Assembly (NCBI RefSeq): GCF_030317145.1 | Contig: NZ_JASZYE010000004.1 | Span: 62,001 to 126,000 of the forward strand | DNA from: Variovorax flavidus | GTDB taxonomy: Bacteria; Pseudomonadota; Gammaproteobacteria; Burkholderiales; Burkholderiaceae_C | DNA: 64,000 bases | Direction: 5' to 3' | Shown: one piece after another, positions 54,158 to 57,769 of the stretch | Numbering within the stretch: the stretch's first letter is position 1 | Layout: every line of letters begins with the position of its first letter | Notes under the pieces: model-generated | Database searches by the model: none | What the model was told of the DNA's origin: nothing | The model's input: the letters and a program-made list of their open reading frames with translations, nothing else | Translations under genes and position numbers: made by a program

Positions 54158-54625
54158 ATGAGCGAGCGCCCCTGGAAAATTCCCGAGTCGGTGCTGGTCG
54201 TGATCCACACGCCGGCGCTCGACGTGCTGCTGATCCAACGCGCCGACGCCGACGACTTCTGGCAATCGGTCACCGGCAGCAAGGACGCGGCGGACGAGCC
54301 GCTGAGCCTTACCGCCGCGCGCGAGGTCCAGGAGGAAACAGGGATCCTCTGCGGCGAGGGCAGCGAGCTCGGCCCACGGCTGGTCGACTGGCAGCTGCAG
54401 AACATCTACGAGATCTACCCTCGCTGGCGCGCCCGCTATGCGCCCGGCGTCACCCACAACACGGAGCATTTGTTCGGCCTGTGCGTGCCGGAGCGAGTGA
54501 CGCCGCGGCTGGACCCACGCGAACACACCGCGTGGCAATGGCTGCCGTACCGGGCCGCGGCGGACGCCTGTTTTTCGCCGTCGAACGCCGAAGCGATCCT
54601 GCTCCTGCCACAATTTGTGCAATGA
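54158..54625 (+). CDS. nudB: Dihydroneopterin triphosphate diphosphatase NudB
   Basis: NudB removes pyrophosphate from dihydroneopterin triphosphate in folate synthesis. The 155-residue protein has a Nudix box (GSKDAADEPLSLTAAREVQ followed by EETGI). YAPGVTHNTEHLFGLCVP is also characteristic of NudB. FolE, which makes its substrate, is encoded two genes downstream. Its stop overlaps the next start by four bases. Confidence 0.92.
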   Translation: MSERPWKIPESVLVVIHTPALDVLLIQRADADDFWQSVTGSKDAADEPLSLTAAREVQEETGILCGEGSELGPRLVDWQLQNIYEIYPRWRARYAPGVTHNTEHLFGLCVPERVTPRLDPREHTAWQWLPYRAAADACFSPSNAEAILLLPQFVQ

Positions 54626-55380
54626 ATTCGCCGGCGAACAGCTTTCGGGTGGCCACCTACAACATCCACAAGGGTGTGCAAGGCATCGGGCCGGCGCGGC
54701 GCCTCGAGATACACAACCTCGGCCACGCCATCGAGCAGCTCGATGCGGACATCGTGTGCCTGCAGGAGGTGCGCAAGATGAACCGCCAGGCGGCGGCCCG
54801 CTTCCGGCACTGGCCCGAGTTGCCGCAGGCGGATTTCCTCGCGCCCGAGGGCTACACCGCGGTCTACGAGACGAACGCCATCACCAAGCACGGTGAGCAT
54901 GGCAATGCGCTGCTCACCCGCTGGCCGGTGCTGCGCAAGACCCACCAGGACATCTCGGACCACCGCTTCGAACAGCGCGGACTCCTGCACGTGGCGATCG
55001 ACCTCGACGGCACGCCCGTCCACGCCATCGTGGTGCACCTGGGCTTGATCAAGGGCAGTCGCGTCCGCCAGGTCGCCCAACTGCGCGAATTCATCGAGCG
55101 CGAGATTCCGCCCGGGGAGGCGCTGATCGTCGCCGGGGACTTCAACGACTGGGGCGCGCGGATGCGCTACGCGATGAACGCCATGGGCATGCGCGATTCC
55201 AGCGACCTGCGCGGGCCGCGTACCCTGACCTATCCCTCGCGCTTACCGGTCGCGCAGCTCGACTTCATCTACGGCCGGCAGCTGGAGCTGCTCGCATGCT
55301 CCGTGCCGCGCGGGCCGATCTGGGCCCGCATGTCCGATCACCTGCCGCTGGTGACCGACTTTTCGCTATCAAAACAATAG
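54622..55380 (+). CDS. YbhP-like endonuclease/exonuclease/phosphatase-family protein
   Basis: This 252-residue EEP-superfamily enzyme has ATYNIHKGVQG at the start and the metal Glu in ADIVCLQEVRKMN. VAGDFNDWGARM, LDFIYGR and the final SDHLPLVTDF complete the catalytic set. Length and motifs fit E. coli YbhP (253). That gene is normally followed by a cardiolipin synthase (clsB), but here folE follows. No signal peptide is seen. The substrate is unknown. Confidence 0.85.
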   Translation: MNSPANSFRVATYNIHKGVQGIGPARRLEIHNLGHAIEQLDADIVCLQEVRKMNRQAAARFRHWPELPQADFLAPEGYTAVYETNAITKHGEHGNALLTRWPVLRKTHQDISDHRFEQRGLLHVAIDLDGTPVHAIVVHLGLIKGSRVRQVAQLREFIEREIPPGEALIVAGDFNDWGARMRYAMNAMGMRDSSDLRGPRTLTYPSRLPVAQLDFIYGRQLELLACSVPRGPIWARMSDHLPLVTDFSLSKQ

Positions 55381-55450
55381 CAATACGACGAGGCGGGTAG
55401 GGCGCTGTAGGGGCAATCGCCTTCCATCCATTCGCTGTTAGGATGCGCTA

Positions 55451-56182
55451 ATGCTTAGGACTATCGACGCCGCGAGGCGCCCCGCGGAAGGGGCTGAAGA
55501 CGAGGGCACACCCGTGTCCGTGAAGATTCGGGAGCGCCTGCTCGCCGCCCGCAAGCGCTTCAACGCCAACGACAACATCGCCGAGTTCATCGAGCCCGGC
55601 GAACTCGAGCATCTGCTCGACGAAGTCGAAGGCAAGATGAAGCACGTGCTCGAAAGCCTGGTGATCGATCTCGACAACGACCACAACACGGGCAACACGG
55701 CGCGCCGGGTTGCCAAGATGTACCTCAACGAGGTGTTCAAGGGCCGCTATGTGGCGCAGCCTTCCCTCACCGAATTCCCGAACGCAGAGCATCTCAACGA
55801 GCTGATGATCGTCGGCCCGATCACCGTGCGCAGCGCCTGCTCGCACCACTTCTGCCCGATCATCGGCAAGCTCTGGATCGGCGTGATGCCCAATGAGAAG
55901 ACCAACGTCATCGGCCTGTCGAAGTACGCGCGGCTGGCCGAGTGGGTCATGGGCCGCCCACAGATCCAGGAAGAAGCCGTTGTTCAGCTGGCCGACCTGA
56001 TCCAGGAAAAGACGCAACCCGACGGTTTGGCCCTGGTGGTCGAGGCGGAGCACTTCTGCATGCAGTGGCGCGGCGTCAAGGAGATGGACAGCAAGATGAT
56101 CAATTCGGTGATGCGTGGCGTCTTCCTGAAGGACCCCAACCTTCGCCGCGAATTCCTTTCCCTTCTTCCACGCAAGCGCTGA
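55451..56182 (+). CDS. folE: GTP cyclohydrolase I
   Basis: FolE turns GTP into dihydroneopterin triphosphate, entry to folate and pterins. The 243-residue protein has the zinc Cys/His block SACSHHFCPIIGKLWIGVMP, the segment VIGLSKYARLAEWVMGRPQIQE and the second zinc Cys in HFCMQWRGVKE. Length is a bit above the E. coli enzyme (222), by an N-terminal extension. AGGA lies 9 bases before the ATG. A BLUF sensor gene follows after only 6 bases. Confidence 0.94.
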   Translation: MLRTIDAARRPAEGAEDEGTPVSVKIRERLLAARKRFNANDNIAEFIEPGELEHLLDEVEGKMKHVLESLVIDLDNDHNTGNTARRVAKMYLNEVFKGRYVAQPSLTEFPNAEHLNELMIVGPITVRSACSHHFCPIIGKLWIGVMPNEKTNVIGLSKYARLAEWVMGRPQIQEEAVVQLADLIQEKTQPDGLALVVEAEHFCMQWRGVKEMDSKMINSVMRGVFLKDPNLRREFLSLLPRKR

Positions 56183-56188
56183 ATCATC

Positions 56189-56611
56189 ATGCTCGTACGC
56201 CTTCTCTACGCCAGCCGCGCCGTGGACACGAGCCCAGGCGCCATCGAGGCCATCCTCGCGCAATCGCGCTCGCACAATACCGCTTGCGGCATCACCGGCA
56301 TTCTTTGCTATGGGGCGGGCGTGTTCCTGCAGGCCATCGAAGGCGGCCGGATGGCGATCAGCGAGCTGTACGGCCACATCCAGAAAGACCCCCGGCACAA
56401 GGACGTGGTGCTGCTGCACTACGAGGAAATCTCGGAGCGCCGCTTCGGCGGTTGGACGATGGGGCAGGTCAACCTGTCGAAGCTCAATGCGTCGACCTTG
56501 CTCAAGTACTCGGAGCGGCCGGAACTCGATCCGTACTCGGTGTCGGGCGCGGTCTCGCTCGCGCTGCTGGAAGAGTTGATGGCGACTGCCGCCATCGTCG
56601 GTCGACACTGA
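56189..56611 (+). CDS. Short BLUF blue-light sensor protein
   Basis: This 140-residue stand-alone BLUF protein binds FAD. All key positions are present: Tyr7 (LLYASRA), Asn30 (SHNTACGITG), Gln48 (FLQAIEG), Trp89 and Met91 (RRFGGWTMG). About 40 residues follow the BLUF core as helices. No output domain is fused, so it must act through a partner protein. It is 6 bases after folE and 15 bases before a DUF429 gene, so the three probably share a transcript. Confidence 0.92.
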   Translation: MLVRLLYASRAVDTSPGAIEAILAQSRSHNTACGITGILCYGAGVFLQAIEGGRMAISELYGHIQKDPRHKDVVLLHYEEISERRFGGWTMGQVNLSKLNASTLLKYSERPELDPYSVSGAVSLALLEELMATAAIVGRH

Positions 56612-56626
56612 TCCACCATCCTCCGG

Positions 56627-57451
56627 GTGTTGCTGCTCGGCTGTGATTTTTCGAGCGCGCCGACAGCGCGCAAGCCGATCGTGATGGCGCTCGGTACCGC
56701 AGAGGCGGAGCGGGTCACCCTGTCAGGCTTCGAGTGCTTCGATTCGCTTGACGACTGGGGTCGATGGCTTGGCGCTTCACCGGAATGGGTCGGCGCATTC
56801 GACTTCCCCTTCGGATTGCCGCGCGAACTGGTCGAACACCTGTGCTGGCCGCTGCAATGGCACGCACTCATCGCGCACTACGCCGGCCTCGGCCGCGCCG
56901 AGATTCGTCAAACCTTTGCTGCCTTCTGCGCCGCGCGGCCCGTCGGCGGCAAGTTCGCGCACCGGGCCACGGACGGTCCTGCGGGCTCCAGCCCGTCGAT
57001 GAAGTGGGTCAATCCACCCGTCGCCTTCATGCTGCACGCCGGCGTGCCACGGCTGCTGGAAGCGGGCGCGGTGCTGCCGGGATTGCACAGGCCTGCGCAC
57101 GGCGGTGCGCGCATCGCGCTGGAGGGCTATCCGGGCCTCCTCGCGCGTGAGTTGATCGCGCGGCGCAGCTACAAGAGCGACGATCCCGGCGCGCAGACCG
57201 AGGCGCGCCGGCAGGCAAGGGTCGATCTCGTCGAGGCAATGGAAAAAGGCTCCGCCCGCCTGGGCGTTCGACTCGTCCTGAACAAGTCCATGCGGGAGCG
57301 CCTGCTCACCGATGCCAAGGGCGATTGCATCGATGCGGCGCTCTGCCTGCTCCAGGCCGCCTGGGCGGCGGCGCGCAGCGCGAGTGTCGGCACCGGCTAC
57401 GGTCTTCCAGCGGAAATCGACCCGCTCGAGGGCTGGATCGTGACAGCCTGA
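56627..57451 (+). CDS. DUF429-family protein
   Basis: This 274-residue protein opens LLLGCDFSSAPTARKPIVMALG, a nuclease-like beta start with an Asp, and continues AFDFPFGLPRELVEHLCWP. A later EGYPGLLAREL and the GDCIDAALCLLQAAWAA block end the fold. These fit DUF429, an RNase H-like fold family of unknown function with conserved acidic residues (Asp in GCDFSS, Asp in DFPFG, Asp in GDCIDA). The start is GTG 56627. It is the third gene after folE and BLUF. Confidence 0.75.
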   Translation: MLLLGCDFSSAPTARKPIVMALGTAEAERVTLSGFECFDSLDDWGRWLGASPEWVGAFDFPFGLPRELVEHLCWPLQWHALIAHYAGLGRAEIRQTFAAFCAARPVGGKFAHRATDGPAGSSPSMKWVNPPVAFMLHAGVPRLLEAGAVLPGLHRPAHGGARIALEGYPGLLARELIARRSYKSDDPGAQTEARRQARVDLVEAMEKGSARLGVRLVLNKSMRERLLTDAKGDCIDAALCLLQAAWAAARSASVGTGYGLPAEIDPLEGWIVTA

Positions 57452-57525
57452 CTTCCCCGAGTCCTACAGCAGGTTGAGCCCATGCCGGAGGCCACCGGCA
57501 GGATGCCCTCGCTAGATTGAATCCA

Positions 57526-57543
57526 GTGGTTCGGGCGAACCAC
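57526..57543. promoter_or_regulatory. Perfect palindrome upstream of csbD
   Basis: GTGGTTCGGGCGAACCAC has 8-base perfect arms and a 2-base centre, starting 46 bases before the CsbD ATG. It could be an operator or an mRNA stem. AAGGAA serves as Shine-Dalgarno further down. Confidence 0.4.
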
Positions 57544-57571
57544 CACTCACCAACTTTGCGAAGGAATTGTT

Positions 57572-57769
57572 ATGAACAAGGATCAAGTGGCAGGCCGTGT
57601 CGAAGAGGCCAAGGGCAAGGTGAAGGAAGTCGCCGGGAAGGTCACCGGAAGCGAAAAGCTCCAGACCGAAGGCGTGGTCGACCAGGCCGCGGGCAAGGTC
57701 CAGAAGACCTATGGCGACGTCAAGGAACAGGCCAAGGACGCCATCAAGCGCGACGCCGACAAGCTGTGA
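57572..57769 (+). CDS. CsbD-family stress protein
   Basis: This 65-residue soluble, highly charged protein reads MNKDQVAGRVEEAKGKVKEV and ends AKDAIKRDADKL, rich in Lys, Glu and Ala. CsbD proteins accumulate under general stress and are thought to be helical or disordered protectants. It is the first of the stress and envelope group. A BON lipoprotein gene follows 61 bases later on the same strand. Confidence 0.9.
   Translation: MNKDQVAGRVEEAKGKVKEVAGKVTGSEKLQTEGVVDQAAGKVQKTYGDVKEQAKDAIKRDADKL

Follow-up and report, generated by a model that had tools for sequence, protein, structure and literature searches.

A conserved folE-BLUF gene pair in Variovorax and related bacteria, and BLUF as a possible blue-light partner of a divergent GTP cyclohydrolase I

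Why is a blue-light photoreceptor without an output domain encoded immediately behind the gene of a GTP cyclohydrolase I? The question is raised by a locus in the window analyzed here, a stretch of 64,000 nucleotides from Variovorax flavidus, in which nudB, a gene of the endonuclease/exonuclease/phosphatase (EEP) family, folE, a BLUF gene and a DUF429-type gene follow one another on the plus strand between positions 54158 and 57451 (Table 1). FolE is the first enzyme of folate synthesis, and NudB carries out the step following it. A first-pass annotation, made from the sequence alone, had described the last three genes as one tight unit, with 6 bases between folE and BLUF and 15 bases between BLUF and the DUF429-type gene, and had placed nudB two genes 5' of folE; the coordinates agree on both points. 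BLUF is read in the same frame as folE. No clear Shine-Dalgarno sequence precedes it in the window, and a Shine-Dalgarno-like word is found at most 18 nt before BLUF in 77 of 172 paired loci. An Rfam search of the whole window at gathering scores returned two tRNAs only and no RNA switch 5' of folE, and a scan of positions 55300-57600 found no sigma-70-like promoter and two terminator-like sites, where 1.5 are expected.

Table 1. Genes and spacing at the folE-BLUF locus (positions in the window).
Feature	Position	Strand	Description
nudB	54158-54625	+	dihydroneopterin triphosphate diphosphatase; NF006961 208.8 bits (cut-off 103)
EEP-family gene	54622-55380	+	endonuclease/exonuclease/phosphatase family, between nudB and folE; PF03372 74.3 bits
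folE	55451-56182	+	GTP cyclohydrolase I, divergent subfamily, N-terminal extension (ANDNI motif)
folE-BLUF gap	56183-56188	+	6 bases
BLUF	56189-56611	+	short photoreceptor, PixD-like, without output domain, 140 aa
DUF429-type ORF	56627-57451	+	GTG start; loose neighbor

The FolE protein matches the Pfam family PF01227 with 149.1 bits (cut-off 27). Its score against the TIGR00063 equivalog, 151.7 bits, is under the cut-off of 181.6, and we therefore assign it to a divergent subfamily and do not claim the equivalog name. Cys130, His132, His133, His201 and Cys203 are conserved at 0.99-1.00 among 138 sequences; by motif they match Cys110, His112, His113, His179 and Cys181 of E. coli FolE, which we take to be its zinc and catalytic residues. 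This FolE is the one PF01227 match in the window's genome, and no FolE2 match was found there, so folE is the genome's only recognizable gene for a type I GTP cyclohydrolase. The same genome has two BLUF-domain genes and one photolyase-domain gene. The second BLUF (G000:C23:296339-296614, L170) is unrelated to the one studied here (32% identity), and no FolE is present in the surrounding 14 kb.

The BLUF protein, which is 96% identical to its nearest named relatives, all Variovorax, matches PF04940 with 102.5 bits (cut-off 25). No second Pfam domain is present across its 140 aa, in keeping with its earlier description as a lone BLUF, and Tyr7, Asn30, Gln48, Trp89 and Met91 stand at the positions given for them by the first-pass annotation, from which we also take the assumption that these five residues have photocycle roles. 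The 172 paired loci yield 127 distinct BLUFs, one of 152 aa and the others of 138-143 aa; the first four residues are invariant among them and Met91 is present in 126, so that the complete set is kept in 126 of 127. An AlphaFold model of the single chain (34-row alignment) has a mean pLDDT of 89.7. Its top structural match is PixD (Foldseek, 1x0p, E 1.1e-15), and VIA-align gives Z 22.8 and rmsd 1.3 over 135 residues for 2hfo and Z 22.0 for 1x0p. According to this model the protein resembles the PixD-type short BLUFs, which have about 140-150 aa and consist of the core and C-terminal helices. The single sequence in which Met91 is replaced, by Leu, comes from G605 (L209:4324-4740); it still adjoins folE, has the lowest identity (48%) among the adjacent BLUFs of the family sample described below, and is possibly a decaying copy. 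The FolE of this genome clusters on the FolE tree with FolEs that have no BLUF.

Conservation of the pair was first examined in loci selected for their similarity to BLUF (L001-L112, excluding L002 with its distant BLUF and keeping duplicates). The folE gene is immediately 5' of BLUF in all 111 loci, and in 105 of them 1-12 nt separate the two genes. Because a locus set chosen in this way is biased, FolE and BLUF were searched separately in the same genomes, using samples of the window's family (150 genomes), order (150) and class (274). Among the matches listed, the family sample contains 150 FolE-subfamily matches in 143 genomes, two further genomes having weaker FolE matches only, and BLUF is directly 3' of folE in 126 of these 143 genomes. 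There are 135 BLUF matches in the same sample, 127 of which, from 126 genomes, immediately follow folE. The remaining eight comprise one in G593, where the contig breaks and the end of FolE is seen beside BLUF in L189, two partial pieces at contig ends in G635, in which FolE was not found, and five distant BLUFs at 40-48% identity.

In the order sample, with thresholds of at least 60% identity for the FolE subfamily and at least 47% for BLUF orthologs, the former is present in 28 genomes and the latter in 18 genomes, which span nine family codes. Varied contexts of BLUF without a folE neighbor had been named beforehand as a finding that would speak against a link between the two; the contexts do vary, but the folE neighbor stays, being adjacent in 17 of the 18. 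In the class sample, the FolE subfamily (E 1e-40) is present in five genomes and the pair in four of them, two of which have a different family code while the others are the window's genome and a second member of its family; four other BLUFs of this sample (38-49% identity) have no FolE nearby. The pair is also carried on the megaplasmids of Cupriavidus campinensis and C. metallidurans CH34, two of four Cupriavidus records having been examined. As a control we inspected 16 loci of other BLUFs (L131-L142, L145-L148), none of which has FolE within about 1.5 kb. In one pair locus (L175:3613-4566) a folE2 gene (PF02649) is located 5' of folE-BLUF, so that genes for both kinds of type I GTP cyclohydrolase are neighbors there.

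The third gene behaves differently. The DUF429-type protein of the window has no Pfam match at E up to 1, and PF04250 is matched by 7 of 11 aligned members (the window protein and 10 homologs; best E 3.2e-7), so the DUF429 label given to it earlier is reasonable by way of its homologs. Of 97 loci with both genes, 41 have it less than 100 nt behind BLUF, 4 have it 100-400 nt away and 52 farther off. A laxer search, measured from match to match, gave 45 near and 53 wide-gap loci, and in all 53 of the latter an EamA transporter gene (a relative of one in L049) intervenes. This variable spacing, together with the EamA-type gene in between, speaks against the trio as one unit, a reading that we reject. 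What survives of the proposed trio is its folE-BLUF part, which is widespread in the listed family genomes; judged by gene order, folE-BLUF is a conserved unit and the DUF429-type gene probably lies outside it.

FolE is also encoded without BLUF. Among the matches listed, 23 of 150 FolE matches in the family sample have no adjacent BLUF, and 17 listed genomes with FolE lack adjacency by coordinates. The contig break accounts for G593, contig ends cut near FolE in G602, G620 and G621, and G612 has a diverged FolE only (54%). Twelve family-sample genomes appear to keep the FolE subfamily without BLUF, as do 10 of the 28 order-sample genomes, and four genomes (G571, G589, G617 and G658) have the pair plus a second subfamily FolE without BLUF. 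The fact that FolE is kept without BLUF in some genomes indicates that it does not need BLUF. From the side of BLUF, G120 (66-67% identity) is the one clear exception among the 18 order-sample orthologs, its BLUF not being beside folE. In this genome both genes lie close to contig ends, with about 145 nt left behind FolE and 352 nt between the start of BLUF and a contig end; these two ends share no 12-base word, and the 28-residue start of an ORF behind FolE has no Pfam match. An insertion between FolE and BLUF is possible in this case. A phage-borne BLUF was considered and rejected; in the two "phage" records with a BLUF, the match reaches 35% and covers 67% of the query. The record L231 (CAKLQH020000004.1, "Acinetobacter phage MD-2021a") has phbC, an RsmC-like gene and eamB beside BLUF and looks like bacterial chromosome; no annotated folE was seen within 8.3 kb there.

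Loci L171-L187, 17 stretches of 8-10.5 kb that belong to other families or orders, were searched for 10 window genes. FolE and BLUF were the only two recovered, and none of the other eight turned up in any of the 17. The position of nudB had been taken to strengthen a link to pterins; this neighborhood is local, nudB being near folE in the window's family but in none of the stretches from other families and orders (0 of 17). Among 14 neighbor proteins of pair loci, 12 had Pfam matches, of differing kinds. In other families these are asparagine synthase, DsbB, DUF456, CMAS, an AsnC-type regulator, an RnfD-type protein, dienelactone hydrolase, an FAD-binding monooxygenase-like protein, DUF480 and MerR; in the window's family they are flavocytochrome c sulfide dehydrogenase and DUF748. 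The contexts are partly repeated: one branch of the window's family shares a conserved arrangement across 15 loci, and elsewhere a small number of ORFs recur in 3-4 loci.

The tight pair in nine family codes, the intact residues, the PixD-like model, the changing flanks and one CarH/LitR-type cluster (see below) suggest that BLUF is a dedicated blue-light partner that regulates this FolE subfamily, mostly by direct binding, a reading to which we give a probability of roughly 0.5. Under this proposal, folE and BLUF would be co-transcribed and BLUF would be made in part, probably, through translational coupling to folE. BLUF would sense blue light by its flavin, the lit protein would alter FolE output in either direction, and the supply of pterins and folate would then track illumination. 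The most likely mechanism would be binding of a PixD-like BLUF assembly to the FolE decamer, in a contact that light may loosen or tighten.

The proposal can be compared with several known systems. PixD (Slr1694/Tll0078), a cyanobacterial short BLUF that acts through PixE, resembles the window BLUF in its whole-length fold, its C-terminal helices and the lack of an output domain; the two are 31-40% identical, and the gene constantly found with BLUF here is folE rather than that of a response regulator. In Synechocystis, the gene of the PixE response regulator lies beside that of PixD. The window has no such arrangement, the immediate neighbors of BLUF being folE and the DUF429-type gene. For a PixD-like BLUF tied to FolE, relatives of both proteins have matching symmetry: human GTP cyclohydrolase I is described as a D5 decamer with pentamers of GFRP, the regulator of the mammalian enzyme, bound on its five-fold axes (PMC7750480), and PixD crystals as two stacked pentamer rings, light dismantling the PixD-PixE complex (PMC5899715). 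By analogy, BLUF might be a light-sensing counterpart of GFRP, a pentamer ring that would cap the FolE decamer at its five-fold faces and let blue light switch FolE directly, up or down, in many Burkholderiales lineages; we regard this specific version as doubtful. GFRP would act alike if BLUF rings cap the decamer, but a GFRP complex takes its signal from phenylalanine and BH4 and not from light, and BLUF matches no Pfam family except BLUF itself (PF04940 alone at E up to 0.001, with no match to the GFRP family).

An independent link between light and folE is described for the short-LOV/class II LitR system of Pseudomonas mendocina, which acts on folM-folE-folX. In that study, light raises folM transcripts about 2.5-fold and folE transcripts 1.6-3.3-fold, and the light-inducible LitR-dependent genes of Pseudomonas include photolyase, UfaM and folE (PMC9758184). 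That system differs in using LOV instead of BLUF and in acting at the level of transcription through LitR. At one pair locus (L240:9409-18181, G104), folE and BLUF close a co-directional cluster that is headed by a regulator of CarH/LitR-type architecture; known clusters of that type are B12-dependent and respond to light. The order is MerR plus B12-binding regulator, CMAS-type methyltransferase, DUF1295, fatty-acid desaturase, FAD amine-oxidase-like oxidoreductase, CMAS, folE and BLUF. The regulator scores 63.4 bits against PF13411 (cut-off 21.6) and 35.9 against PF02607 (cut-off 23); for PF02310 it is just short of the cut-off (31.2 versus 32.1 bits). Neither the window nor the remaining order and class pair loci examined have such a cluster, save for a MerR gene in L237 (13907-17803, G230), where the order is MerR, folE, BLUF, DCC1-like and SDR and no B12 domain was found in the regulator. 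When all loci were searched by tblastn with the L240 and L237 genes, no additional pair locus showed a cluster of this kind. With L240 and L237 alone, a light-type context is present in at most 2 of 17 loci, the window not being among them. A relative of the L237 SDR gene adjoins a BLUF-less folE in L160. The photolyase of the window's genome matched only itself when searched against all loci, a search that diverged photolyases could escape.

We also compared the identity of FolE to the window protein with the value predicted from a neighbor gene of the same locus. FolE without BLUF averages 4-5 points below prediction. Based on AspS, with 7 BLUF-less loci versus 61 others, the difference has p 0.0009 (p 0.002 within the same range of neighbor identity); based on the EEP-family gene, 8 versus 88 loci, p 0.0015 (0.001); and based on NudB, 4 versus 64 loci, p 0.004 (0.014). 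Two loci, L212 and L213, run against the trend or fit poorly. The indication that FolE has diverged more than its neighbors predict where BLUF is missing is suggestive only, because the BLUF-less loci (4-8) overlap between the tests and include sisters. A single FolE position, K227, seemed to track the presence of BLUF: Lys is present in 96% of 133 BLUF-linked FolEs versus 8 of 26 aligned BLUF-less ones, and it is lost throughout 9 of 16 BLUF-less clades versus at most 4 for the other conserved columns (121). The residue was at first read as a contact site because it aligned next to human R235, an allosteric-pocket residue of GTP cyclohydrolase I (PMC7750480; human numbering deduced). That reading was abandoned: there are 13 changes on BLUF-less branches versus 5 elsewhere, with p 0.02 uncorrected over 118 columns, and K227 is unremarkable among conserved columns once the branch lengths of the tree are counted. 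Two results favor a link from light to pterins, namely the L240 cluster and the extra divergence of FolE where BLUF is missing.

The pair could also be explained without contact between its products. BLUF may signal to another protein, for instance a transcription factor as in BluF-BluR or AppA-PpsR, and be encoded behind folE since both are needed in light or since BLUF controls expression of the operon. The partners of known BLUF proteins are varied in the account of PMC5899715, L237 has a MerR regulator just 5' of folE and BLUF, and the L240 cluster is headed by one of CarH/LitR type. Across the pair loci, however, no regulator gene is constant, the neighbors examined differing between families, and signaling to another protein does not predict that FolE should diverge further where BLUF is absent; we hold this explanation to be possible but on the unlikely side. 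The two genes may instead have come together long ago and have no functional connection, their order persisting through inertia or travelling as a cassette. On a weakly resolved BLUF tree two label changes account for the paired sequences, the G120 copy being responsible for one, and a second pair in G546 (family sample) together with the Cupriavidus megaplasmid pairs suggests joint transfer. A history of this kind is nevertheless improbable, given that the pair is kept in the 17 loci of other families and orders from which the eight other window genes are missing, and that the photocycle residues are nearly invariant.

The near invariance of these residues also bears on the idea that BLUF responds not to light but to the flavin or redox state and balances the use of GTP between folate (FolE) and riboflavin (GTP cyclohydrolase II). 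BLUF domains bind FAD, and GTP is common to FolE and riboflavin synthesis. However, BLUF photochemistry requires Tyr7 and Gln48, both of which are invariant in the 127 distinct sequences, and we consider such a role very improbable.

A blue-light partnership between BLUF and FolE would add to the BLUFs already known to act on separate partners, as described in PMC5899715; the open-access literature searched yielded neither a folE partner nor any description of BLUF and folE as a pair. Since the near-constant gene partner is a central metabolic enzyme, the partner hypothesis is directly testable. If it is true, blue-light control in non-photosynthetic bacteria would extend to vitamin synthesis, and if binding is direct, nature would here provide a compact switch by which light controls an enzyme that has been studied in depth. 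The conserved pair suggests that light may tune vitamin production in Variovorax and many related bacteria.
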